This document shows positions 4,293-18,200 of a stretch of DNA of 64,000 bases, piece by piece. The DNA comes from Mucilaginibacter roseus (GTDB lineage: Bacteria; Bacteroidota; Bacteroidia; Sphingobacteriales; Sphingobacteriaceae). The stretch is from NCBI RefSeq assembly GCF_021215455.1, contig NZ_JAJPWV010000001.1, positions 558,001 to 622,000 of the forward strand. Reading direction: 5' to 3'. The stretch's first letter is position 1. Each line of letters starts with the position of its first letter. Both the position numbers and the translations under genes were made by a program. The notes under the pieces were generated by a model, which was not told where the DNA came from, made no database searches, and worked only from the letters and a program-made list of their open reading frames with translations.

Positions 4293-5144
4293 CTAAAATA
4301 TTATCTTCTCAATCGGCAATACCACTATGCCCTGGGCGCCGGCCTGTTTCAATTGGCTTATGCGGTCCCAAAAATCACGCTCGGGTATTACGGTGTGTAC
4401 TGCTACCCAGTCGCTTTCAGCAAGCGCTACTACCGATGGGCTTTTTACCCCAGGTAACAACGCTGTAATGGCATCCAGGTTTGCTTTTGGTGCGTTAAGC
4501 ACTACGTACTTGGTTTCTTTAGCGCGTAATACTGATTGTACACGCTGGATCAGTTCCTGTATCAGGTCGTTATCTTCTTCACCTTTACGGCCGATCAATA
4601 CCGCCTCGCTGCTCATTACATCGGCAAAGGGTTTAAGGCCATTGCTTTTTAGCGTTCCGCCGGTTGATACCAAATCGCATATCGCATCGCTTAAACCTAA
4701 ACCCGGCGAAATTTCAACCGAGCCTGATATGGTGCGGATGTCGGCTTCAATATTATTACTTTGCAGATACTTGTTCAGGATGACAGGGTAGGTGGTAGCG
4801 ATGGCCTTACCATTCAACGATGCCAGGCTACTGATATCGCTGTTGTTTGGTATGGCTATCTTAAGCGAGCAACGGCCAAAGCCCAAGGGCTGCAGGTAGG
4901 CTACGTCAACCTCGGTTTCCTGTATAACGTTTTCGCCTACAATGCCCAGGTCGGCAATGCCATCCTGTACATACTCAGGAATATCGTCGTCACGCAAAAA
5001 AAGTATTTCAAGCGGAAAATTCGATACCGGTGATATTAATGAGCTTTTATAATTTTCAAAGTTAAGGCCGCAGTTTTTAAGCAGCTCAACAGACTTTTCA
5101 TTTAGCCGACCCGATTTTTGGATCGCTATTTTTAGTGTTTTCAC
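4293..5144 (-). CDS. hisG: ATP phosphoribosyltransferase, long form
   Basis: With 283 residues this is the long HisG, which carries its own C-terminal ACT-like regulatory domain and needs no HisZ. Catalytic motifs include AIQKSGRL, LGIVGEN, IATTYP and the PRPP-binding-type ISGSVEISPGLGLSDAICDLVSTGGTL. The C-terminal region from about residue 210 (VLNAPKANLDAI and HTVIPERDFWD) fits the feedback-inhibition domain. It catalyses the committed step from ATP and PRPP. The start codon is GTG at 5144. It lies 61 nt downstream of a His-rich leader ORF, so expression is probably set there. Confidence 0.95.
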   Translation of the reverse strand: MKTLKIAIQKSGRLNEKSVELLKNCGLNFENYKSSLISPVSNFPLEILFLRDDDIPEYVQDGIADLGIVGENVIQETEVDVAYLQPLGFGRCSLKIAIPNNSDISSLASLNGKAIATTYPVILNKYLQSNNIEADIRTISGSVEISPGLGLSDAICDLVSTGGTLKSNGLKPFADVMSSEAVLIGRKGEEDNDLIQELIQRVQSVLRAKETKYVVLNAPKANLDAITALLPGVKSPSVVALAESDWVAVHTVIPERDFWDRISQLKQAGAQGIVVLPIEKIIF

Positions 5145-5205
5145 AAAATAAAATTAAGGGTAAATAAATAAACGGGGGTGCTGTTATTTCACGTAGAAAC
5201 ATACA

Positions 5206-5268
5206 TTATCTAATATCGCCATGGTGGCGATGATGCAGATGAAGATGATGTAGTTTGTAACCGTTCAT
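5206..5268 (-). CDS. hisL: His-rich leader peptide of the histidine operon (20 aa)
   Basis: A short ORF starts at the ATG at 5268 and ends with TAA at 5208-5206. It encodes 20 residues with the run HHLHLHHRHH, seven His in ten codons, directly upstream of hisG and downstream of a promoter-like sequence. Leader peptides of this kind are known from enterobacterial his operons, where ribosome stalling at His codons controls attenuation. The codons CAT-CGC-CAC-CAT-GGC-GAT lie inside a 6-bp hairpin (5215-5231). No GC hairpin with a U-tract follows before hisG, so the output mechanism may differ from classical termination. The symbol is by analogy only. Confidence 0.85.
   Translation of the reverse strand: MNGYKLHHLHLHHRHHGDIR
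5215..5231 (-). promoter_or_regulatory. Hairpin inside the his leader ORF
   Basis: A perfect inverted repeat, ATCGCC-ACCAT-GGCGAT, overlaps the last His codons of the leader peptide. A ribosome stalled on the preceding His codons would cover or release it. It could be the switchable element of an attenuator. There is no U-tract behind it, so it is not itself an intrinsic terminator. Confidence 0.5.
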
Positions 5269-5306
5269 TTTTAATATATAGTAGTACTATAGATTTTGAA
5301 GTGCTG

Positions 5307-5336
5307 CAAATATATACAGTAGATCATAAAATCAAA
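5307..5336 (-). promoter_or_regulatory. Promoter of the his operon (Bacteroidota type)
   Basis: On the minus strand a -33 element TTTG (5336-5333) is followed after 18 nt by TATATTTG (5314-5307), an exact match to the -7 consensus TAnnTTTG of the primary Bacteroidota sigma factor. Transcription would begin near 5300, about 30 nt before the leader-peptide ATG. Confidence 0.65.
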
Positions 5337-5356
5337 ATTATATGTGAATTTTTATG

Positions 5357-5394
5357 AAAAAGAGAAAGCCCTTCCGGATGGTGGAAGGGCTTTC
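5357..5394 (-). terminator. Intrinsic terminator of the lipoprotein array
   Basis: A 12-bp perfect stem (GAAAGCCCTTCC / GGAAGGGCTTTC, 5364-5394, 7-nt loop) is followed on the minus strand by TCTTTTT. It lies 20 nt past the stop of the last lipoprotein gene and separates the array from the his promoter. Confidence 0.85.
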
Positions 5395-5414
5395 ACTTTC
5401 AATTAAACGCTTGC

Positions 5415-6377
5415 TTAAAATGATTTATAAACAATATTGCTGTTCCATGTGCTGTCAACTTTAACATTCGTACCTGTGGCGGTGCCGTTTCCGCCGAATA
5501 AATTTCCGGTTAAAAGCGTTATCTGGTTAGGGTTACATGTAACGTCGGTAAGCGCTTTTGAAGCTATTACCTTGTTGTTGGCATCCACCGCTTCAATGGT
5601 TATATTGTGCTTGCTGTTGGCATCAACCAATGCATAAGTGGCAAAACGCAGGTTGCTTTTTCCGGATAAACTGCTGGTAATAGTAAAACGTGCACCTGCG
5701 TCAGCACTATTCAGGAGGTCGTCCACGCCGTAAGGTTCTGAACCCCAGTTGTAAACATGCTTTGCCGGTGACACGCGCGTGTATATATATTTAACGTTGC
5801 TTGGTATAGCATCTTTAATATGCAATTGTACCTGGGCTACTACACGTTCAAGTACTATGTTAAGCGACTGGTTTGATTGGCCCACCGTAAATGCCATACT
5901 TTTGGCAAATGTTTCTCTGAATAGGGAAGGATAAAAACTGGTGTCATAGTAAAAAGCGATGCTTGAGTTGCCTGAATGGACAAGTGTGCCATACACTGCA
6001 CCTTCTTTTTCTTGCCTGCTAAGCCCACGCGTGTCATCGTTTAAGCCGGCTGCGCAATAAATTGTATAGTTGCCGGGTTGCAATTTTACCTTTATGCTGC
6101 CATCGGTAGTGGTTATATAATTGCCTACCTCGGCTCCGGTACTGTTTAATATAAACCGGTGAAATACACGGTAAAATTTATAGTCATTATCCTCTCGTAT
6201 AGCCGTATCTCCAACTGCGTTGGTTTTTATACCCGAATAATCTTTAGAGAAACCGGATACTGTAAAATTTACTTCATACTCCTTGTTATTATCAGATGGT
6301 GTGGGTTTTACATCTTTTTTACAGGATGCAACGGTAGTTAGTATGGCAATGGCTATAGTATTGTAAATTGCTTTCAT
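5415..6377 (-). CDS. Array lipoprotein A1 (family A, FimB/Mfa2-like)
   Basis: The protein has 320 residues, with a signal peptide and lipobox (TVASCKKD). The domain begins KEYEVNFTVSGFSKDY, has a central segment VAQVQLHIKDAIP, a late segment PNQITLLTGNLFGG, and ends VKVDSTWNSNIVYKSF. These marks recur in the three other family A members (starting at 8252, 10097 and 11920 on the minus strand). The pattern (beta-rich, L-x-R then V-x-V-x-I-x-D-A-I-P) resembles fimbrillin-type FimB/Mfa2 anchor or minor subunits; this family call is inference. It is the last gene of the eight-gene array, followed by a strong terminator, and is probably at the outer membrane surface. Confidence 0.75.
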   Translation of the reverse strand: MKAIYNTIAIAILTTVASCKKDVKPTPSDNNKEYEVNFTVSGFSKDYSGIKTNAVGDTAIREDNDYKFYRVFHRFILNSTGAEVGNYITTTDGSIKVKLQPGNYTIYCAAGLNDDTRGLSRQEKEGAVYGTLVHSGNSSIAFYYDTSFYPSLFRETFAKSMAFTVGQSNQSLNIVLERVVAQVQLHIKDAIPSNVKYIYTRVSPAKHVYNWGSEPYGVDDLLNSADAGARFTITSSLSGKSNLRFATYALVDANSKHNITIEAVDANNKVIASKALTDVTCNPNQITLLTGNLFGGNGTATGTNVKVDSTWNSNIVYKSF

Positions 6378-6400
6378 GTTTTAAAAATTGCAGGTTATTA

Positions 6401-7288
6401 TTAATATTCTACCACTGTAGTGTCGTTACCATACAACTCATTATAGGTTACGGTAAAGCCCTGTTCTCCATAAGCACCTTTAAACACATTGCCCGATAGT
6501 ATAGTACGTGTGTTAGGATAAATCATCACGCTATCTATCACCTTGCCGTATGTTCCAAATATTTTATTACTTACGGTTACTACCACTTTAATTGGTTTTA
6601 CAGTGTTGGTAACATAAGTTTTGTAAGTGTAGTTAGTGATGCCGAATAATGAAGGCGCTATGTTTTTTGTTTCACTACGACGGTAGGGCTTACTAATATC
6701 GGGCGTGCCGTTGTTCAACAACAGGCTGTAATCGTTTTCCAAACTATATTGTATTGATAAAGTCTCATCATCAATAGCATCAAGAAACTTCACTTCCAAC
6801 TGGCCGTTTACACGTTGAAGGTTAATATTTTGGGTTACAGTAGATGCCGTTACAGTAAGTTCAAATTTTTGATAGAAAGTGTCGCTGCCCAGCGCAACTA
6901 TATGTTTAGAGTCATATTCCGTCGGCTTATTTTTAGTAGCTACCAGTACAACAGTATACGTTCCGGCAGCAAAGCCATCAGTTATCTTTCCAAAATTTGG
7001 CGTGGTACTGGTTTGTATCAGCGAGGTTACTAATTTATCATCGCTATTAAAAACATAATAGGCTAAAAAGGTGGCCAAGTCTGCCAGGTTAGCCGGGGTA
7101 TTGTTCAGTTTTTTAATTTTAGACGAGCGTTGCAGGTTTTGCTCGTCGGCATCAATACCGATATTGAAATTAACTTCATATTTTTTACCATCATTATCCG
7201 GATCAGGCTTCGACGGGCTTTTGCCATCCTTTTTACATGCCGCGAAAAGCAAAAAGAGCAATGGGAAAATTATATAAATCTTTTTCAT
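6401..7288 (-). CDS. Array lipoprotein B1 (family B, FimB/Mfa2-like)
   Basis: The protein has 295 residues and lipobox LFAAC, then the family B linker CKKDGKSPSKPDPDN and KKYEVNFNIGIDAD. Shared marks are INLQRVNGQLEVKFLDAI in the middle, PNTRTILSGNVF late, and an acidic/aromatic end (TTVVEY). Family B is related to family A through the L-x-R and N-x-x-T-x-L-x-G motifs but is shorter and ends differently. It is followed after 23 nt by A1. A surface-exposed fimbrillin-like or adhesin subunit is the best guess; no enzymatic motif is visible. Confidence 0.75.
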   Translation of the reverse strand: MKKIYIIFPLLFLLFAACKKDGKSPSKPDPDNDGKKYEVNFNIGIDADEQNLQRSSKIKKLNNTPANLADLATFLAYYVFNSDDKLVTSLIQTSTTPNFGKITDGFAAGTYTVVLVATKNKPTEYDSKHIVALGSDTFYQKFELTVTASTVTQNINLQRVNGQLEVKFLDAIDDETLSIQYSLENDYSLLLNNGTPDISKPYRRSETKNIAPSLFGITNYTYKTYVTNTVKPIKVVVTVSNKIFGTYGKVIDSVMIYPNTRTILSGNVFKGAYGEQGFTVTYNELYGNDTTVVEY

Positions 7289-7298
7289 TCTTGATAGA

Positions 7299-8252
7299 CT
7301 AAAATGATTGATTGATCACGTTTGTATTCCAGGTGGTATCAACCTTTAAACCGAGGTTGTTAAATAATTTACCCGAAAGCACGGTTATACTGTTAGGGCT
7401 CAAAGGCACATTCTGTATGGTTTTTACCTTGCTGTCGTTTGTTTCTTTAAGCCGGTAGCCTATTTTTACATCCCTTATAGTATTGGGCTCAACTAAAAAA
7501 TACGATACAAACTTGCGGCCTTTTTGGGAATACAATGTGTTGGGTATATCATATTCGCAACTCAAGCGGGTTTTTTCACGCCACGCAGTACCTTTAAAAA
7601 TAAACTCATCAGATAGTGAATCCACACCAATAGAAATTAAATCGATGTTATCAGGTATCGCATCCTTAACTTCAACTATAACTTTGGCAACTATACTTGT
7701 TAATTGTACCGTAATAGGCGTTGTACTGGTAGTTGAAACCGTAAAGTCAACTTTCTTGAAAAATGATTCGCGTGTGAATGGTTGTATCCCATCATAATTT
7801 CCATAATGCAAGGTTCCTACATCAGGCCCGTCTGCAGATGTGTAAGCGCCAACGGCATCGTACGTTTGTCTTGGGTCATTATATGGGTTAAAACCCTCTG
7901 TGTTATCATTCAAAGAGCTAAAAAAGTATGCTGTATAGTGGCCTTCATTTAATTCGAGCGATATGTTGCCTGTGGATGTATTTACATATTTAACCGCGAC
8001 TTGATATCCGGCATCATTACATACGTATACAGATACGCTTCTGGAGAGTGGATACCTACCGTAGGTTGGATAAATAAGCGAATCGCCTAACGCGTTTGTT
8101 TTAATATTTTGGTATTGCTGCGTAAAGCTGCTAACATTAAATGCTACCTGGTATTTTTTACCGTTGGTACTTTGTGGCGAAGGTTTATTATCTTTTTTAC
8201 AGGCCGATATAATAATACATGCCAGAGTTAAGCTAAAAAATATTTTTTTCAT
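7299..8252 (-). CDS. Array lipoprotein A2 (family A, FimB/Mfa2-like)
   Basis: The protein has 317 residues and lipobox IISACKKD. The start KKYQVAFNVSSFTQQYQNIKTNALGD is closely like A1, with VAKVIVEVKDAIP in the middle, PNSITVLSGKLFNN late, and the end LKVDTTWNTNVINQSF. Ser/Thr/Tyr-rich loops between residues 100 and 180 differ strongly from A1, as expected for exposed variable regions. It lies 10 nt upstream of B1. Confidence 0.75.
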   Translation of the reverse strand: MKKIFFSLTLACIIISACKKDNKPSPQSTNGKKYQVAFNVSSFTQQYQNIKTNALGDSLIYPTYGRYPLSRSVSVYVCNDAGYQVAVKYVNTSTGNISLELNEGHYTAYFFSSLNDNTEGFNPYNDPRQTYDAVGAYTSADGPDVGTLHYGNYDGIQPFTRESFFKKVDFTVSTTSTTPITVQLTSIVAKVIVEVKDAIPDNIDLISIGVDSLSDEFIFKGTAWREKTRLSCEYDIPNTLYSQKGRKFVSYFLVEPNTIRDVKIGYRLKETNDSKVKTIQNVPLSPNSITVLSGKLFNNLGLKVDTTWNTNVINQSF

Positions 8253-8269
8253 GATTGCAGGTTCAATGG

Positions 8270-9142
8270 TTAAAACTCAATTTGAGTTGTATCCGCATAA
8301 GTTGCGTAGCCAACTCCAAAATTGCCTGTACCTAAAGGTTCAGATAATTTGCCCGAGAGTATGGTACGGGTGTTAGGCTTTATAATAACATTATCAACGG
8401 TAATAATTTTAACAGGCGTATTGGCTTGGTTTAACGTAGTGATGGTTACGCTAACAGGGTCCGCGGTATTGGTAACATATGTGCCAAAGGTAAAATCTAT
8501 ATGGTTGGTTACGCCTTTAACGTAATTATGTGTGTATGATGATTGCGTGTTTGGTAAACCGGTAGATAAGAGCAATTCACGATCATTATGTATATCGAAT
8601 TTTATAACCCTTATATCCGGTGTAATTTTATCGAGAACTTTTATTTGTAATTGCCCGTTTACGCGTTTTAAATCCAGGTTACGGGTAACCCCGGCGTCAG
8701 CAATAGTGAAGGTATATTTAGCATAAAATAATTGTTGCCCCACTGCTTTAACCTTTGTGGCATCAAAAAAGGCGGGTGCAGTCTTTGTGGCAAAAACAAT
8801 AAGGGTGTAAGTACCGTTGCTAAATTCGTGGTTTATTAAGCCAAAATTCGGGTTTGTGCTGTTTTGCGTTACCTCATTTACCAGCTGGTTGCTGCTGTTG
8901 TAAACGTAATAACTTAAAAAGGAGACGGCTTTAGCAAGGTCAACGGCTTCATTGTTGCGCAATTTACCCGAAGGTGTAACGCTTAACTCGCTGGCACTAC
9001 TAACCTCAATACCAACATCAAAACTTACATGATATTTTTTTCCATTATTGTCCGGATCGGATTTCGACGGGCTTTTGCCGTCTTTTTTGCATGATGCGAA
9101 AAGCACAACCAGCAAACTCGTCAGTATGTAAATCTTTTTCAT
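8270..9142 (-). CDS. Array lipoprotein B2 (family B, FimB/Mfa2-like)
   Basis: The protein has 290 residues and lipobox LFASC, with the same CKKDGKSPSK linker as B1 (here SDPDNNGKKYHV). The middle motif is LDLKRVNGQLQIKVLDKI, the late motif PNTRTILSGKL, and the end DTTQIEF. The linker is conserved almost at DNA level while the mature domain has diverged from B1. The gap to A2 is 17 nt. Confidence 0.75.
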   Translation of the reverse strand: MKKIYILTSLLVVLFASCKKDGKSPSKSDPDNNGKKYHVSFDVGIEVSSASELSVTPSGKLRNNEAVDLAKAVSFLSYYVYNSSNQLVNEVTQNSTNPNFGLINHEFSNGTYTLIVFATKTAPAFFDATKVKAVGQQLFYAKYTFTIADAGVTRNLDLKRVNGQLQIKVLDKITPDIRVIKFDIHNDRELLLSTGLPNTQSSYTHNYVKGVTNHIDFTFGTYVTNTADPVSVTITTLNQANTPVKIITVDNVIIKPNTRTILSGKLSEPLGTGNFGVGYATYADTTQIEF

Positions 9143-9152
9143 GTTCGAGATA

Positions 9153-10097
9153 TTAAAATGATTTGTTGATCACGGTTGAACTCCAGGCGGTATCAACTTT
9201 AACATTATTGCCCGACGGGCCTGTAGCGCCACCAAATAAATTGCCACGCACCAGCGTAATTTTGTTAGGACTGCAAACAACGCCTGTAATGATTTTTTGC
9301 GCATATAACGTACTGCCCGAATATGCTCTTATACTTACGGTATGAGTACTGTTTGGCGGTACCAGCATTTGCACGTCTGCGGTTATATCATTGCGCTTGT
9401 TTTGTGCAATCCCAAAAGATCCTCCGCTACTGACTAATTCATGGTACACTTCAGGACTGTTGCTGAATTTGTTATACGTTGAATCTATACCAACATCAAT
9501 ACGGGTTACCGCGGTAGGTACGTAATCCTTTATGTTTACCCGTAGCCTGCTGGTTATTCGTTGCAAGGTTACGTTTTGAGTTTGGTTGTTTTGCGGAACG
9601 CTGAAGTTCACCTCTTTAAAAAATATATCTTTCGATAACTGCATAGGGCCAAATTCGGTATCCAATTGATATACGTAATAATAGTTGCCGTCACTTTCCA
9701 AGTCAACTATTAAATTATAGCTAAAACGGCCTTCACTGTAGTAAGTCTCTTTCATGCCGGTAAATACCGCTTTGTAGTTGCCCTGTGGTAAGATTACCGA
9801 AAACTGCCCGAGGTTGCCTCCGTATACCGAAGTTGCGCCCTTATAAACTTCTTTTTCCTGACTATCAAAAATATTGAGGCGTATCGCGTCGGTTGTGGTG
9901 TCAAGTATGGCGTTAATTTTTAAGCCCTTAGTTACTGATGATGGATCAACATCCGTAAATTCCTGCGAAAAGCCTGTTGCATTAAATTTTACTTCGTATT
10001 TTTTGCTGTCGTTGGGTGTGTTTTCGGGCGCTTTATCTTTTTTGCACGCTGTAAATACCAGGGCTGCAAGTATGGTTATAGTAAGTATTTTTTTCAT
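9153..10097 (-). CDS. Array lipoprotein A3 (family A, FimB/Mfa2-like)
   Basis: The protein has 314 residues and lipobox VFTACKKD. It starts KKYEVKFNATGFSQEF, has TSRLRVNIKDYVP in place of the VAxVxVxIKDAIP motif, PNKITLVRGNLFGG late, and ends VKVDTAWSSTVINKSF. It is the most diverged of family A in the middle motif. It is followed by B2 after 10 nt. Confidence 0.75.
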   Translation of the reverse strand: MKKILTITILAALVFTACKKDKAPENTPNDSKKYEVKFNATGFSQEFTDVDPSSVTKGLKINAILDTTTDAIRLNIFDSQEKEVYKGATSVYGGNLGQFSVILPQGNYKAVFTGMKETYYSEGRFSYNLIVDLESDGNYYYVYQLDTEFGPMQLSKDIFFKEVNFSVPQNNQTQNVTLQRITSRLRVNIKDYVPTAVTRIDVGIDSTYNKFSNSPEVYHELVSSGGSFGIAQNKRNDITADVQMLVPPNSTHTVSIRAYSGSTLYAQKIITGVVCSPNKITLVRGNLFGGATGPSGNNVKVDTAWSSTVINKSF

Positions 10098-10109
10098 GAG
10101 ATGGCTGTG

Positions 10110-10976
10110 TTAAAATTCAACAATTGTTGTGTCGGTCTCAAAGGCTTGATCGTAGCTTGCGTTAAAACCGGCGGAGTTAACATCAAACAAATTACCTGAT
10201 AGTACCGTGCGTGTATTAGGCATCACCTTTACGCTGTCAATAACTACTTTTTTACCTGTTGCAGAATTAATTATTACCCTAAGGTTTCTATCGGTGTTGG
10301 TTAACGATAGCAGGAAACTATAATTTGTAGTACCAATCAAATTAGTGGGTATCTTTTTTACATAGCTCCTTAAATAGGTGGGATCGCCCGGTAAGCCGTC
10401 AGCTATATTTAAAGCCCTGTCAGTACTTACTTCATAGCTTATGCTGTTGGTCCCTTGTGGTATGGCATCCAATATTTTGATTTCCAGTTGGCCATTGCGG
10501 CGCTCCAGGTTTATATTTTGCGTTACGGCGGAGTTGGTTACCGTTAGCGTGAACTTTTTATAAAAGTTATCTCTGCCTATGGCTACAAAATGTTCATCGT
10601 TATACAACGTAGGCTTTCCATCTGTAGCTAATAGCATTACGGTATAGGTGCCCGCCTGTAAATTATCATTTACCGAACCAAAGTTTGTCAGGGTGCTGTC
10701 CTGAACGTAATGGCTCACCAGCTTATTCTGAGCGTTGTAAACAAAATAAGCTAAAAATGAAGCAACGTCCGATATGTCAATATCTGCATTGATTTTTTGC
10801 CCGCCTGCTGATTTTGTGCTGATTGTTTTGCTGCTGGCATCTATACCAACGTTAAAACTTACCTCATAAGTTTTATTATTGTTGTCCGGATCAGGTTTCG
10901 ACGGGCTTTTGCCGTCTTTTTTGCATGATGCCAGAGCAATACCAAACAATGCGCAAATATAAATTACCTTTTTCAT
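10110..10976 (-). CDS. Array lipoprotein B3 (family B, FimB/Mfa2-like)
   Basis: The protein has 288 residues and lipobox ALASC, with linker CKKDGKSPSKPDPDN and KTYEVSFNVGIDASS. The middle motif is INLERRNGQLEIKILDAIP, where the A-family and B-family motifs look most alike. The late motif is PNTRTVLSGNLF and the end ETDTTIVEF. It is followed by A3 after 12 nt. Confidence 0.75.
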   Translation of the reverse strand: MKKVIYICALFGIALASCKKDGKSPSKPDPDNNNKTYEVSFNVGIDASSKTISTKSAGGQKINADIDISDVASFLAYFVYNAQNKLVSHYVQDSTLTNFGSVNDNLQAGTYTVMLLATDGKPTLYNDEHFVAIGRDNFYKKFTLTVTNSAVTQNINLERRNGQLEIKILDAIPQGTNSISYEVSTDRALNIADGLPGDPTYLRSYVKKIPTNLIGTTNYSFLLSLTNTDRNLRVIINSATGKKVVIDSVKVMPNTRTVLSGNLFDVNSAGFNASYDQAFETDTTIVEF

Positions 10977-10984
10977 AGCCTTTG

Positions 10985-11920
10985 TTAGAATGATTGATAC
11001 AGAATGTCTGAACTCCAGGTTGTGTCGGCCTTCACGTCAACGGCGTTGTTGTTTGTGCCATTACCCCCAAACAGATTGCCCGATAGTACAGTGATTTTGT
11101 TTGGATTGATTGTGATGTTCCTGATCGCTTTTGTTGCGATTATCTCCTGGCGTATGTTATACGCCTTTAAGCTTAGGCTGATGGTGTTGTTTGGGCCACT
11201 TAAAAGCTGCTTTGTAATTGTATAGTTTAAAGTGCCTGCTGAATTATTGAAATAGTAACGGTCCCAAAAGGCAACATCAACATATTTATCTGACTTTAAA
11301 GGCAAACCATCTTTTATCTGCATCGCGCTGTAAACGGTATCGATAGTTAAAATTAGGGTAGATGCATTTGCCGGTATTGCATCCTTTATAATAATTTTTA
11401 AACCGGCAACCACCCGTGTCAGATCAACAGTGTTTGACACATCGTTGTTACTTACCGTAACTGATAATCGCTTGTAAAATGTTTCCCTGAACTCGCCCCT
11501 GTCAACGTTTGTGCCACTATAATAAATATAACCAGTATTCAATTGGTCCTTGTTTGGATAACCGAAATTGTTGATTAGACTTAAGTTAATAAATACAAAG
11601 GTGTATGTGCCTGAAGGTAGCTGGTATGATATATTCGCGTAGCTGCCATCAATACCTCTTCTAAGAGTTGATTCACGGTAAAGTTTACCGTTACTGTCAT
11701 ATATAAATACTCGAATTTGATTGCTTTCTATTGCTTGTATAGCGAGTGCGTTGTTTTTCAAATCATTGGTTTGAGTGTTGGCATATTCAACACTAAACGC
11801 GTTAAAAGTAAAGTTAACGTTATGAAGTTTGCCATCACCTACAGGTGCAGCCGGTTTATCCTTTTTGCACGATGAAAATGCCAGCAATAGTAATGCGGCC
11901 ATTTTAAATATATTTTTCAT
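10985..11920 (-). CDS. Array lipoprotein A4 (family A, FimB/Mfa2-like)
   Basis: The protein has 311 residues and lipobox AFSSCKKD. It starts LHNVNFTFNAFSVEYANTQ, has VAGLKIIIKDAIPANAS, late PNKITVLSGNLFGG, and ends VKADTTWSSDILYQSF. It is the first family A gene in transcription order, 27 nt after B4 and 8 nt before B3. Confidence 0.75.
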   Translation of the reverse strand: MKNIFKMAALLLLAFSSCKKDKPAAPVGDGKLHNVNFTFNAFSVEYANTQTNDLKNNALAIQAIESNQIRVFIYDSNGKLYRESTLRRGIDGSYANISYQLPSGTYTFVFINLSLINNFGYPNKDQLNTGYIYYSGTNVDRGEFRETFYKRLSVTVSNNDVSNTVDLTRVVAGLKIIIKDAIPANASTLILTIDTVYSAMQIKDGLPLKSDKYVDVAFWDRYYFNNSAGTLNYTITKQLLSGPNNTISLSLKAYNIRQEIIATKAIRNITINPNKITVLSGNLFGGNGTNNNAVDVKADTTWSSDILYQSF

Positions 11921-11947
11921 TACAATGTGTTTAAGGTGAGTGTAAAA

Positions 11948-12826
11948 TTAAAAGCCAACAGTGTCGGCAACAGGTTCCCAGTCGTTAAATGTGAAATTAA
12001 ATACGCCGCTTGGGTTAGAAAATATCTTTCCGGATAATATAGTACGCTTGTTTGGCAGGCACTTTACGCCGTTAACCGTAGTGTTTGTAAACACATCACT
12101 GCCAATGTAGCTGGTTATATTAACATTTATCCTACTGACTGTATTTAACACATAAGTTGTAGCCACAAAATCGGGCTTGCCTTGATAGTCGGTTGTTAAA
12201 TAGGTTTGTGTGAATGAGCCTGGTGAGTTGGATAATACACCGGTAGGTATGTCAAAACCATAGTCGTTGGTTATGTTTAATATAATGCGCGATACTTTAT
12301 TTGGTACAGTATCCAATATTTTAACCTGCAGCTGGCCTACAATTCGTTGCAGATTTACTTCTTGATTTACTGCGGTTGTAGCATCAACCTTTAGTGTAAA
12401 TCTTTTGTAGAACACTTCGCGCCCGACACCAAATATTTTATCATCTTTTATATTAGGCTCGGCGCTTGCAGCCCAAACAACAACCGTGTATTCACCAGTC
12501 TTAAAGCTGTCTGCAAGTTTGCCAAAGTTGGGTTGATTACTAAGTTGTATCAATGATCCCAAAATTTTTCCTGAAGCATCGTACACACGGTATTGCAAGT
12601 AGGTGGCTATCGACTTAATATCAACAAGAGCATTGGTGGTTAAGCCGTTTTCGTTTGGTGCAATACCTACTACTTTTTGGCTGTCGGCATTAATACCAAC
12701 ATTAAAATTAACGGTGTACTCCTTATTATCGGGTTCCGGATCAGGTTTTGACGGGCTTTTGCCGTCTTTTTTACAAGAGAGCACAGCAAGCCCTATTAAT
12801 GCAAAAAGGTAAAAGGTTTTTTTCAT
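11948..12826 (-). CDS. Array lipoprotein B4 (family B, FimB/Mfa2-like), first gene of the array
   Basis: The protein has 292 residues and lipobox AVLSC, with the linker CKKDGKSPSKPDPE and KEYTVNFNVGINADS. The middle motif is VNLQRIVGQLQVKILDTVP, the late motif PNKRTILSGKIF, and the end VADTVGF. It opens the array behind a promoter-like sequence at 12842-12869. As the first-transcribed member it may be the most abundant subunit; that is inference. Confidence 0.75.
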   Translation of the reverse strand: MKKTFYLFALIGLAVLSCKKDGKSPSKPDPEPDNKEYTVNFNVGINADSQKVVGIAPNENGLTTNALVDIKSIATYLQYRVYDASGKILGSLIQLSNQPNFGKLADSFKTGEYTVVVWAASAEPNIKDDKIFGVGREVFYKRFTLKVDATTAVNQEVNLQRIVGQLQVKILDTVPNKVSRIILNITNDYGFDIPTGVLSNSPGSFTQTYLTTDYQGKPDFVATTYVLNTVSRINVNITSYIGSDVFTNTTVNGVKCLPNKRTILSGKIFSNPSGVFNFTFNDWEPVADTVGF

Positions 12827-12841
12827 GGGTGAAAATTTTTG

Positions 12842-12869
12842 TAAAGATAGTTATTAAATTAATAACCAA
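12842..12869 (-). promoter_or_regulatory. Possible promoter of the eight-lipoprotein array
   Basis: On the minus strand TTG (12869-12867) is followed after 17 nt by TATCTTTA (12849-12842), one mismatch to TAnnTTTG. It lies in the 57-nt gap upstream of B4, about 16 nt from the ATG. Read-through from the glycosyltransferase gene upstream is also possible. Confidence 0.4.
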
Positions 12870-12883
12870 TACTTTAATTACCG

Positions 12884-14383
12884 TTAAGGCTTTTCCATCA
12901 GATAGATCGCGCCATCATCAAACCCATAAAGTTTTTTTACACGAAATTGTTTTTCAATGTCAGCAATGCTTATTAGTTCAGCATTAGCCATGGCATTGAA
13001 CCAAACCAGGTAGAACTTTTTTTGCTGCGAGAATTTGGCAACGTCAGCAGTGAAAAATTTTTGCGGAACCAGTTTAGCGTGGCCGCCGGTAAAAAAATAT
13101 ACAGCCTCATCAGCATCGGAGTAAACGGGGATGCCGGGTTTGTATATATGCTTGTTCTTTTTCTGGAAGCTTATAAAAGGGGAGGTGTTCCAGTCGTCAT
13201 CGCTATAGCCCGGCACGCCGTATTCAAATTCATCGTCATAGCGTTTCAGGTCAATAAGCGTAAGGTTGTACAGAAAACCTGCCATTATAATAACGGCCAC
13301 GGCAGCCATCCATTTACGACTGTTGTTTTTAAAGGCAACAATAGCACCCGGTACCCAATCGGTGCAGGCTAATAATAACGGCACATACATAGGCGATAGA
13401 AGCCTCGAATTCAATTGCTCAAATCTTGAAACCGAGGCTATCACTAATATAAACGTAGCGTAAACTATTGCGAAGCTTAAAAATATGGTTTCGTAACGGT
13501 TTATCTGTTTTTGCTTCACCTGCCAGATGAAACGAGCTGTCAAAGCAATTAAAATTAGTGCACTTAACATTGCGCCGTAAGAGTAGGCGGCTTCGGTAAG
13601 GCCAAGCCAACCGCAAATAGTAACACCAAAATAATGCAGGTTTTCGCCAAACGTGGTTACTGATGGTTTGCGGGTACCCGTTGAATAGCCGGATGAAAAA
13701 TAGTTAACCAGCAGGTTAATTATCAATGGCAATAACCCTGCAAAGCCAAATAGGGTAATATGTACAAAACGTTTTTTAAGCTCAGGTTTGGCATTTGCCA
13801 ATATCATCAGGCATCCGGTAGTTATAACCGTAATGCCGGCATATCGGGTAATACAACATAAACCCGCAACCACCGCGACGTACAATAAATGTTTTATTCG
13901 CGGTGAATCTAAGTATCGCTTAAAAAAGGGTACAAAAAGGATGGTCAGGAAAATGAATAACGTTTCTGACCATAAATAGCTGTAAATCTCAAGCAGGGCA
14001 GGGCTAAGCAATATGGCCGCTAACACCAGCCATTTATATAGTACAGAAGGCTTTTTAAACCTGCTGATGCAATAGCCTGTCAACAGCAAAACCCCGCCAA
14101 AAAGTAGTCCGTTGATTACCGGCCCGGCCTTTATAGCGTCAACTCCGAACAGAAAACTCAAGCTCAACACCGCCGGGTAAAACACCGGGAAAAAGGTAAG
14201 GGGAGAGCCATTAAAAGTAATAAGGTTGCCGTGCTTGTAAATGCTTTCGGCAGCGCTGGCATACATAATGGAGTCGGGCGATATACCGACTCCGCTGTAT
14301 TTTGTAAAAAAGTAAACCGCAAAGTAACCCGCTATAGCGAATAACAGCGTATCGAGATGTTTTAAATAGCGGGTTTTCGGCAT
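12884..14383 (-). CDS. Polytopic membrane glycosyltransferase (GT39/ArnT-like)
   Basis: The protein has 499 residues with about ten hydrophobic segments over the first 370 residues and a soluble C-terminal domain. The first periplasmic loop has ISPDSIMYASAAESIYKHG, where the acidic D is the position expected for polyprenyl-phosphate-sugar-dependent GT-C enzymes. Family knowledge: such proteins move a sugar from a lipid carrier to an acceptor at the periplasmic face. The acceptor is unknown; envelope lipids or the nearby lipoproteins are both possible. It lies between gmhB (16 nt) and the lipoprotein array (57 nt), same strand. Confidence 0.65.
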   Translation of the reverse strand: MPKTRYLKHLDTLLFAIAGYFAVYFFTKYSGVGISPDSIMYASAAESIYKHGNLITFNGSPLTFFPVFYPAVLSLSFLFGVDAIKAGPVINGLLFGGVLLLTGYCISRFKKPSVLYKWLVLAAILLSPALLEIYSYLWSETLFIFLTILFVPFFKRYLDSPRIKHLLYVAVVAGLCCITRYAGITVITTGCLMILANAKPELKKRFVHITLFGFAGLLPLIINLLVNYFSSGYSTGTRKPSVTTFGENLHYFGVTICGWLGLTEAAYSYGAMLSALILIALTARFIWQVKQKQINRYETIFLSFAIVYATFILVIASVSRFEQLNSRLLSPMYVPLLLACTDWVPGAIVAFKNNSRKWMAAVAVIIMAGFLYNLTLIDLKRYDDEFEYGVPGYSDDDWNTSPFISFQKKNKHIYKPGIPVYSDADEAVYFFTGGHAKLVPQKFFTADVAKFSQQKKFYLVWFNAMANAELISIADIEKQFRVKKLYGFDDGAIYLMEKP

Positions 14384-14399
14384 TTGTGAATAACTCCGA

Positions 14400-14891
14400 T
14401 TAGTTTATCAAATGTAACACGGTGCTTATCGGCTGGTCGCTATCAATCAATATACCCGTAACGCCCGCCAGTGTGCCTGCCTCAACATCGCGCTCGCGGT
14501 CGCCAATAAAGTATGATTTTGACGGATCGATATTATATTTCTCAATGCCTTTAAGCAACATGCCGGGTTTGGGTTTACGGCAGTCGCAATCACCCGTAAA
14601 ATTGGGGTGGTGCGGGCAATAGTAAAAATCGGTAAATGTTACGCCGTGTTCACGGTAAACTTCGCTCAGGTGTTGGTGCATTTTGCCGAGTTCGTCCTCA
14701 GTGTACCAGCCTTTAGCTAAACCGCCTTGGTTAGTAGCTACAATAAGCAAGTATCCTCTGTCCTGAAGTGTCTTTAAGGCTTCAAAGTTGTCCAGCACAT
14801 GGAAATCTTCCAGACGGCACACGTAATCGCCCATCTCTTTGTTTAACACACCGTCGCGGTCGAGGAATACTGCTTTGTTCTTTTCTTGCAT
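14400..14891 (-). CDS. gmhB: D-glycero-beta-D-manno-heptose 1,7-bisphosphate 7-phosphatase-like HAD phosphatase
   Basis: The protein has 163 residues and HAD motifs D11-x-D13 (FLDRDGV), VATNQGG and GDRERD. The zinc loop typical of GmhB is present: CPHHP followed by DCDCRKPKPG. It removes the 7-phosphate in ADP-heptose synthesis for LPS core or other heptosylated glycans. No other heptose gene is in the window, so the heptose role rests on the zinc loop; a broader sugar-phosphatase role is possible. It is the first gene before the membrane glycosyltransferase. Confidence 0.8.
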   Translation of the reverse strand: MQEKNKAVFLDRDGVLNKEMGDYVCRLEDFHVLDNFEALKTLQDRGYLLIVATNQGGLAKGWYTEDELGKMHQHLSEVYREHGVTFTDFYYCPHHPNFTGDCDCRKPKPGMLLKGIEKYNIDPSKSYFIGDRERDVEAGTLAGVTGILIDSDQPISTVLHLIN

Positions 14892-15233
14892 TTGTTTTAA
14901 ATTTTTGCAAAATTAGCAATTCTAAAATTTTAACTGACCCAATAAAGCATCAGCAATTTTGCTGTAAGCGGTATAAACCTGCCATCAGGTAGAGATAATC
15001 GGAATACTATATTACGATATTCTAATTTTCAAAATTAAATTCTGATTTTAGAATGATTCTATATTCGCTTAAATATGTAATAAATAATAGTTTTCATTAA
15101 AAAATTATTAAATTAACATCATATTATCTTGGCTATATTAAGAAAGTCGCAAAAATATTGCGCTTATTTTTAGTGTTTGTCAATTTAATTATCTTCGTAA
15201 TTACACCCTAATTGAAACGGTTTAATTTTTATT
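14892..15233. other. 342-nt AT-rich intergenic region between divergent gmhB and gltB
   Basis: This non-coding stretch must hold the promoters of gmhB (minus) and gltB (plus). I see no convincing TTTG / TAnnTTTG pair. Two inverted repeats stand out: ATTCTAA / TTAGAAT (15019-15025 and 15048-15054) and CGCAA-AAATA-TTGCG (15148-15162), the latter 72 nt before the gltB ATG. Either could bind a nitrogen regulator, but that is speculation. Confidence 0.5.
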
Positions 15234-18200
15234 ATGAATCAAACTGATAGCCACCAGGGCCTTTACCGGCCTGAATTTGAACACGACTCGTGCGGAACCG
15301 GATTTATAACTAATATAAACGGCCATAAGGAGCACAGGATAGTAAGCGACGCGCTTACCATGCTGGAGAATATGGAGCACCGCGGCGCCTGCGGATGCGA
15401 TCCGGAATCGGGCGATGGTGCCGGTATACTGATACAGTTACCGCACGAATTATTGATGGAAGAGTGCTCAAACCTCGAGATCAGTCTGCCTGAACCGGGA
15501 GAGTACGGTGTGGGTATGATCTTTTTCCCGAAAGACTCAACCCTGAAAAAAGCCTGCCGTACCATTATTGATAAAGCGGTTGAAAAGCTGGGCCTGCATA
15601 AGCTGGGTTACCGTAAGTTGACTACCGATAACAGCGTTATTGGAGAAACCGCCCGCAGTGCAGAACCGGATGTAGAGCAAATTTTTGTGGCGAAGCCGCA
15701 CCATATTTTAAATATTGATGATTTTGAGCGTAAACTTTATGTGCTGCGCCGCTATATTAATAAATCGGTAACCGAACAGTTTCCGAAAGCTGCCGATGCT
15801 TTTTACTTTACCTCGTTTTCGGCTAAAACTATTATTTACAAGGGCCAGTTAACTACTTACCAGTTGCGTAAGTATTTCTCTGATCTGTCTGATCCGCGTG
15901 TGGCCTCGGGCTTTGCTTTGATCCACTCACGTTTCTCAACCAATACCTTCCCGTCATGGAAGCTGGCGCAGCCGTTCCGCCTGATAGCGCACAACGGTGA
16001 GATCAACACCCTGACCGGTAACCTGAACTGGTTCTACTCAGGCCTGCAATCGCTGGCATCATCATACTTTACAAATGAGGAGATGGAGATGCTGTTGCCG
16101 GTTATTGATAATAATCAGTCTGACTCGGCTTGCCTGGACAATATTATCGAGATATTGCTGCACACCGGCCGCTCATTGCCACATGTAATGATGATGCTGA
16201 TACCTGAGGCATGGGATGGTAACGAGCAGATGGACCCGATCAAAAAGGCGTTCTATGAGTATCACGCTACACTGATGGAGCCATGGGATGGCCCGGCTGC
16301 TATCAGCTTTACTGATGGTAAACTGGTAGGTGCCGTGTTGGATCGTAATGGCTTACGCCCGCTGCGTTACGCCATCACCAGCGATGGCAGGGTGGTAGCC
16401 GGTTCAGAAGCAGGTGTACTGATCATTGATGAAAGTACCATTGTTAAAAAGGGCCGCTTACAGCCAGGTAAGATGTTCCTGATCGATACCGAGAAAGGCA
16501 AGATCATCACCGATGAAGAGATAAAGCACCAGGTAGCATCGCGCCAGCCTTATGGCCGCTGGTTGGAAAACTATAAGATACGCTTGCATGAACTCACCGA
16601 GCCTCGTTTAGCTTTCGCTTCATTAAGTGCCGATTCGGTTTACCGTTACCAAAAGGTATTCGGTTATACACGTGAGGATACTGATCTGATCATCAAATCA
16701 ATGGCGCTGGACGGCAAGGAGCCTATCGGCTCAATGGGTACCGATGTGCCTTTGGCTATATTGTCTGACAAGCCTCAGCACCTGTCGAGCTACTTTAAGC
16801 AGTTCTTTGCGCAGGTAACCAACCCGCCTATCGACCCGATCCGCGAGCGTTTGGTAATGAGCCTTGCTACCTTTATAGGTAACAATGGCAACCTGCTGGA
16901 CGAAGATAAAATGCATTGCCACTGCGTAATGCTTAAGCATCCGATATTAAAGAACCATCAGTTGGAAAAACTGCGTAGTATTGATACCGGTTTGTTCCAT
17001 GCTAAAACACTGCAAACGTACTTTAAGGCTGACGGTCTGCCGGGTTCGCTGGAAAAGGGTATAGCCAGGCTTTGCCGCTACGCGGAGGACGCTGTTGATG
17101 ATGGTTTTGAGGTATTGATCCTGTCAGACCGTGCCGTGGATTCAGAGCACGCCCCAATCCCGTCATTGTTAGCGGTATCAGCCGTGCATCACCACCTGAT
17201 CAAAAAAGGCCGTCGTGGCGCGGTAGGTATTGTGGTTGAAAGTGGCGATGTTTGGGAAGTACACCACTTTGCCTGTTTGCTGGCATTCGGTGCAACGGCA
17301 ATTAACCCGTACCTGGCCCTGTCAACCATCGAAACCATGATGGAAAGCGGCAGCCTGGAAACCAGCCTTGATCTGCGCCAGTTGCATAAAAACTACGTAA
17401 AATCGGTTAATGATGGCTTGCTGAAGATATTCTCAAAAATGGGTATTTCCACGCTGCAATCATACCATGGTTCGCAGGTGTTTGAAATATTGGGTATAAA
17501 CCAGGATGTGGTTGACAATTACTTTGTTGGCGCCGTTAGCCGCATAGGTGGTTTAGGCTTGGATGAAATAGCCCGCGAGTCGCTTACCAAGCACCGCGCA
17601 GGTTTCAATATCAATAAAGAAGATAACGCTCACTTGCTGCCCGAAGGTGGTATATACCAGTGGAAACGCAGGGGCGAAGCGCACTTGTTTAACCCGCAAA
17701 CGGTTCACCTGTTGCAGCATGCTACCCGTACCAACAATTACGACGTATATAAAAACTATTCCAAGCTGATCAACGAGCAGGGCGAAAAGCATTACACCAT
17801 CCGTGGTTTGTTTGATTTTGCCCACCACCGCGAACCAATCAGTATTGACGAGGTTGAACCGGCAGAAAGCATACTGAAGCGTTTTGCAACAGGCGCCATG
17901 TCGTTCGGTTCCATCTCTCACGAGGCACACAGCACGCTGGCCATTGCCATGAACCGCATCGGCGGTAAAAGTAATACCGGCGAAGGTGGCGAGGATGAAA
18001 TGCGTTACGAGAAGCTGCCAAACGGCGACTCTATGCGCTCCGCAATTAAACAAGTAGCGTCGGCACGTTTCGGGGTAACGTCAAACTACCTTACCAATGC
18101 TGACGAATTACAGATAAAAATGGCGCAGGGTGCAAAACCGGGCGAGGGTGGCCAGCTACCGGGCCATAAGGTTGACGACTGGATTGCTAAAACCCGCCAC

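Follow-up and report, generated by a model that had tools for sequence, protein, structure and literature searches.

The window analysed here, a stretch of 64,000 nucleotides (nt) of the Mucilaginibacter roseus genome (contig NZ_JAJPWV010000001.1, positions 558,001 to 622,000), carries at 5415-12826 an array of eight minus-strand lipoprotein genes of two types, A and B, which alternate strictly in the transcription order B4-A4-B3-A3-B2-A2-B1-A1. Comparison with other genomes of the genus revealed that the B-A pair is the unit that varies between genomes and that its two members co-diverge. Our preferred reading, to which we assign a probability of roughly 0.5, is that each B-A unit encodes two lipoproteins of predicted fimbrial-anchor fold that likely form an obligate surface complex, and that the array holds diverged versions of this unit, whose number was likely changed by recombination between the starts of the B genes.

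Within each pair the B gene stands first and the A gene second: B4 (11948-12826, 292 amino acids, aa) and A4 (10985-11920, 311 aa), B3 (10110-10976, 288 aa) and A3 (9153-10097, 314 aa), B2 (8270-9142, 290 aa) and A2 (7299-8252, 317 aa), B1 (6401-7288, 295 aa) and A1 (5415-6377, 320 aa). The intergenic gaps, from B4 to A1, are 27, 8, 12, 10, 17, 10 and 23 nt. The proteins (288-320 aa) all have a CKKD lipobox at the expected place, as judged by reading their sequences, and A and B are distant, diverged paralogues, with 19 invariant columns in the alignment of the eight. G+C is 0.38-0.40 at 6001-12000, lower than in most of the window. An earlier note, made from the letters of the window, had described eight minus-strand lipoprotein genes in strict A/B alternation with gaps of 8-27 nt, and open reading frames and lipoboxes bore this out, with the limits corrected from 5412-12870 to 5415-12826. 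The ending proposed there for the A proteins, TW-x6-SF, is present as [TA]W-x7-SF, the spacing being seven residues and A3 having AW; of the motifs said to be common to both types, N-x-x-T-x-L-x-G is exact in seven of the eight proteins (A3 has V for L) and DAIP in four (A1, A2, A4 and B3).

To determine how the two types are distributed, 149 Mucilaginibacter genomes were searched with a profile of the eight sequences, which gave matches in 87. Sixty matched regions and the window were analysed, and 138 members scored above 150 bits. They formed 63 clusters, of which 30 had two genes, nine had four, two had eight, two had three and 20 had a single gene. Strict alternation was also found in the eight-gene array of M. 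defluvii (locus L048) and in two-pair arrays. In a tree of the 138 members the first and second genes of the pairs formed mirrored clades, with weak deep forks that left the pair clades unseparated from the other members. Clusters of even size gave 56 pairs, nine of which (two each in L072 and L098, one each in L073, L094, L095, L099 and L100) had both members in one subclade and were excluded, which was decided once the tree was known. The remaining 47 heterotypic pairs came from 25 of the 149 genomes. Distances between first genes correlated with those between second genes (r 0.835; 0.938 within genomes; 0.848 with all 56 pairs), and the nearest neighbours of the two genes agreed in 31 of the 47 pairs. 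The partners thus co-diverge, as the earlier note had proposed to check, and its suggestion of repeated duplication of an A/B pair is supported by this co-divergence and by the comparisons of DNA junctions described below.

Profiles trained without the genome under test placed 91 of the 94 paired genes according to their position and gave the right order in 46 of 47 pairs; the three genes placed wrongly, at L065, L068 and L070, all came from single-pair loci. The typing of A and B by these profiles, made from first and second genes of other genomes, is independent of the motifs given above. A tree of 45 pairs (90 sequences, omitting L046 and L070, whose first genes are short) required four changes of the first/second label, and a single split was not rejected (approximately unbiased test, p-AU 0.087). 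Single homologues, which the earlier note regarded as a threat to the idea of a paired unit, do exist in relatives, but in the fetched loci they belong to subclades different from those of the 47 pairs: none of the 94 paired genes was closest to any of the 44 unpaired or same-type members, nor was any of the 44 closest to one of the 94. At L098, L096, L092, L142 and L143, three or four related lipoprotein genes follow each other in tandem but do not fall into two clear types.

The number of pairs differs between genomes at the same chromosomal site. The window site is bordered by a glycosyltransferase-like gene and a gene that we take to be gmhB on one side and by a presumed hisG on the other, both of the latter names being our own assignment from sequence. 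Between common flanking genes, four genomes carry 4, 4, 2 and 1 pairs: the window has pairs 4, 3, 2 and 1, M. defluvii has 4, 2, 1 and 0, Mucilaginibacter sp. UR6-1 (L051) has 3 and 0, and Mucilaginibacter sp. JRF (L053) has one pair, nearest to pair 2. B4 and B2 have orthologues in M. defluvii (92.1% identity for B4), and B3 has one in UR6-1. Losses rather than gains would be the simpler reading of the events at this site. A second site holds both pair a and pair b in L052, pair a alone in L049 and pair b alone in L046. L046 (G000:C2:37283-38170) is another pair of the M. roseus genome itself; its first gene contains an internal TAG, and the pair may be decaying. Across 4293-14891, synonymous divergence (dS) between window and M. 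defluvii orthologues of the pair genes was 0.16-0.52 depending on the pair and fairly similar within a pair; the flanking genes all had higher values (hisG 0.57, gmhB 0.69, glycosyltransferase 0.92, hisD 1.10). The low dS of the pairs hints at whole-pair exchange between species, a comparison in which codon bias and mosaicism are uncontrolled and which was not used as proof.

The starts of the B genes offer a candidate site for changes in the number of units. A 151-nt direct repeat lies at the four B gene starts, every 1834-1854 nt, with 70-73% identity to the reference copy. At nt 60-90, which comprise the lipobox and linker, the window B genes have 92% identity to one another, compared with 44-62% in other bins; the same interval is 84% identical in the B genes of M. 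defluvii and 47% in the window A genes. This block corresponds to 12737-12766 in B4, 10887-10916 in B3, 9053-9082 in B2 and 7199-7228 in B1, all on the minus strand. The block is degenerate in JRF, and two-pair arrays at other sites had no such single conserved block. On the opposite (plus) strand the block reads, in three of the four B genes (9066-9082, 10900-10916 and 12750-12766), as a terminator-like hairpin with a T run behind it, which could stop antisense transcription.

At the window site three B genes are mosaic: each changes from one type to another at nt 77-95, within the lipobox/linker block or immediately after it. Up to nt 77 the first B gene of UR6-1 agrees with B4 at 18 of 20 informative sites; from nt 93 it follows B3, 43 of 332 sites being B4-like. 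The second B gene of M. defluvii joins a B3-like start (22 of 25 sites) to a B2 body (17 of 326 B3-like), and the first B gene of JRF joins a B4-like start (30 of 31) to a B2-like body (94 of 287 B4-like). Each of these breaks was reached by 0 of 5000 permutations. A weaker fourth mosaic was found at the second site, where the first gene of L046 has an a-like start (60 of 66 sites) and a body nearer b (111 of 252 a-like), with the break at nt 102-106 (0/5000). Among five ordinary-orthologue controls, two lacked a break (4153 and 2685 of 5000), one had a weak break near the gene end (221/5000) and the two that involved M. defluvii B1 broke at nt 207-213 (4 and 2 of 5000). The start of M. defluvii B1 resembles that of B0 in the same genome, and this break may reflect another exchange. 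For the L049 control the value was 5/5000.

Recombination between two B-start blocks would change the array by an integer number of units, each consisting of a B body, the following A gene and the start of the next B gene. As every such event would move whole B-A units, the B-A-B-A order would survive it, and recombination between B starts would in this way explain the alternation. A more specific version, which we advance tentatively, is that the leaders keep their positions in the array and that a B body and its A gene are swapped or deleted as matched sets through recombination in the 30-nt block, changing the set of surface heterodimers and never parting cognate partners.

The fold of the proteins was examined by family profiles and structural models. 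A3 (22.7 bits) and A4 (41.6 bits, E 1.5e-10) pass the PF08842 gathering score of 21.2; A1, A2 and B1-B4 gave no PF08842 match and these six are not counted as members of the family, A1 just passing PF20200 (DUF6562) with 25.1 against a gathering score of 25. A sequence search of the PDB with A4 gave no match, so that the link to Mfa2 comes from profiles and models. The models of A4 and B3 both aligned best to the fimbrial anchors Mfa2, BT2657 and BT1062: for A4 the anchors gave 12.2-13.3 and the best shaft, 4gpv, 10.9, and for B3 the values were 12.3-12.8 and 11.4, a small lead, differences of up to 1 being treated as ties. A4 and B3 are thus predicted to share the two-domain fold of Mfa2 and BT1062; as to subtype, the alignments tentatively suggest an anchor rather than a shaft, by a clear lead for A4 and a narrow one for B3. 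In the available parts of two papers, anchors are described with a Trp ten residues before the C-terminus (PMC5789003, PMC2954217). All four A proteins have this Trp, as does B4, which has an NDW motif there; B1-B3 have Tyr or Phe. The C-terminal Trp was rejected as a marker of A: it holds in the window and fails across the genus, a Trp within -13 to -8 being present in 36 first and 32 second genes of the 47 pairs. Arg/Lys-specific cleavage in the loop after strand 1, considered as a marker of a type V shaft, did not distinguish A from B, a K/R being found in that loop in 47 of 47 first and 47 of 47 second genes.

The earlier note had called the proteins fimbrillin-like and suggested two-part fibres or adhesins. 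A fimbrillin-type fold agrees with the A4 and B3 models, whose best alignments are to anchor-type structures; the fibre, as worded there, is not supported, because the best fits are anchors and the genome has no recognised shaft gene. The shaft families PF06321 and PF13149 had no match in the M. roseus genome, other shaft families not having been searched; across the genus they were found in 0 and 8 of 149 genomes, respectively, and the Bacteroides ihuae control was positive. When the neighbours of every cluster, three to either side, were grouped, the largest gene family had seven members; the pair therefore lacks a general partner gene and seems to be self-sufficient. Together with the absence of PF06321 and PF13149 matches, this favours an obligate two-part surface lipoprotein complex. 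A lipid-anchored complex of two parts fits better than a fibre. Lipidation, surface display and direct contact between A and B would be expected of such a complex, which is probably adhesive, and different pairs may have different targets.

The main rival is that the unit is a minimal two-gene fimbria, with B as the subunit of a short polymeric shaft and A as its lipid anchor. The order of the genes agrees with it, as do the narrow lead of anchors over shafts for B3 and the bare mfa-like pairs reported in the part available of a study of Parabacteroides distasonis (PMC9409006). That the entry 4gpv is a shaft also weighs slightly in its favour and against the preferred reading. Given the anchor-type fits of both models and the lack of recognised shaft genes, we regard a minimal fimbria as unlikely, though deserving of serious attention.

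It is less probable still that A and B are independent lipoproteins and that the pair is merely the duplicated block, without functional coupling. The partnerless same-type tandems at L098, L142 and L143 indicate that tandem growth alone is easy, and recombination at B starts would preserve the alternation without selection. On the other hand, the clades to which the 94 paired genes belong contained no lone member in the fetched loci, despite deep divergence, and at the compared sites it is whole pairs, not single genes, that vary between genomes. Mucilaginibacter degrade polysaccharides, which was counted in favour of pairs that bind glycans or nutrients at the surface rather than act as adhesins, as was the title, putative polysaccharide binding proteins, under which BT1062 (3gf8) was deposited. 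This is the least probable alternative, as the available part of the BT1062 paper argues for a fimbrial role (PMC2954217) and, as weak evidence, the clustered, unannotated neighbours include no family of more than seven members.

The two-type unit was then sought outside the genus. A family-wide profile search that also covered Mucilaginibacter gave matches in 233 of 399 genomes, five candidates being scored per genome. Twenty strong loci from other genera were examined, and 19 (all except L151) gave members above 60 bits, 30 proteins in total, encoded singly or in small tandems that do not resolve into two clear types. In a tree of these 30 and the 90 pair members, which excludes the 44 other genus members, the 30 all lay to the same side of a branch supported at 93, and the first/second label required five changes. 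Within this sample the unit of two types thus seems to have arisen in the Mucilaginibacter lineage. In Chitinophagaceae bacterium DXS (L115:6065-13774) an array of eight genes belonging to this protein family has identities of 45% between g1 and g5, 42% between g2 and g6 and 37-40% among g4, g7 and g8, which suggests an independent block repeat with a unit of about four genes.

The neighbours that border the site in the four genomes are, upstream, a minus-strand gene for a glycosyltransferase-like membrane protein with sub-threshold matches only (12884-14383) and, downstream, the HisG-like gene (4293-5144, minus strand). No sigma-70-type promoter match was found in the 57-nt gap upstream of B4, and a promoter of Bacteroidota type at this place would be a conjecture. 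An invertible promoter near B4 was considered and rejected, 12700-13000 holding only short inverted repeats (8-14 nt). An intrinsic-terminator-like hairpin (5364-5394, minus strand) follows the last array gene, and between it and hisG a short histidine-rich open reading frame (5206-5268, minus strand), translated by eye, reads MNGYKLHHLHLHHRHHGDIR; we presume that it resembles the leader peptide of his-operon attenuators. Rfam gave no match in 4800-15300 at E values up to 1.

If the preferred reading is true, two FimB/Mfa2-fold proteins that need each other, without a recognised shaft, would widen the role of an abundant Bacteroidota fold, and the array would illustrate a simple way for a surface module of several genes to expand and contract while its partners stay matched. 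Natural strains with one, two and four pairs at the window site exist in JRF, UR6-1 and M. defluvii, respectively.

For comparison with known systems we drew on the available parts of five papers (PMC5954841, PMC5789003, PMC2954217, PMC9409006 and PMC11316588); among the matches listed in the open-licence literature, none dealt with alternating arrays of FimB/Mfa2 type or with Mucilaginibacter genes of this kind. The array proteins resemble the Mfa2, FimB and BT1062 anchors of type V fimbriae (PF08842) in the lipobox, in the modelled two-domain fold of A4 and B3 and in the Trp ten residues from the C-terminus of A1-A4 and B4; they differ in that the unit combines two diverged genes with this fold and occurs in up to four copies, in that the genome has no recognised shaft gene and in that two of the eight pass the PF08842 gathering score. 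The fimA-fimB, mfa1-mfa2 and bare P. distasonis pairs are likewise two FimA-superfamily lipoprotein genes in fixed order, but there the first gene encodes the shaft, and the parts available describe no alternating array (PMC9409006). The same-type tandems at L098, L142 and L143 share with the array the tandem growth of related lipoproteins and lack fixed first and second types. In recombining arrays of surface-lipoprotein genes with common 5' ends, such as the mycoplasma vsa and vsp loci, a conserved gene start is the exchange point and the bodies vary, single genes switching within a strain. The array is alike in its putative start-based exchange, whereas here it is whole two-gene units that differ between species.
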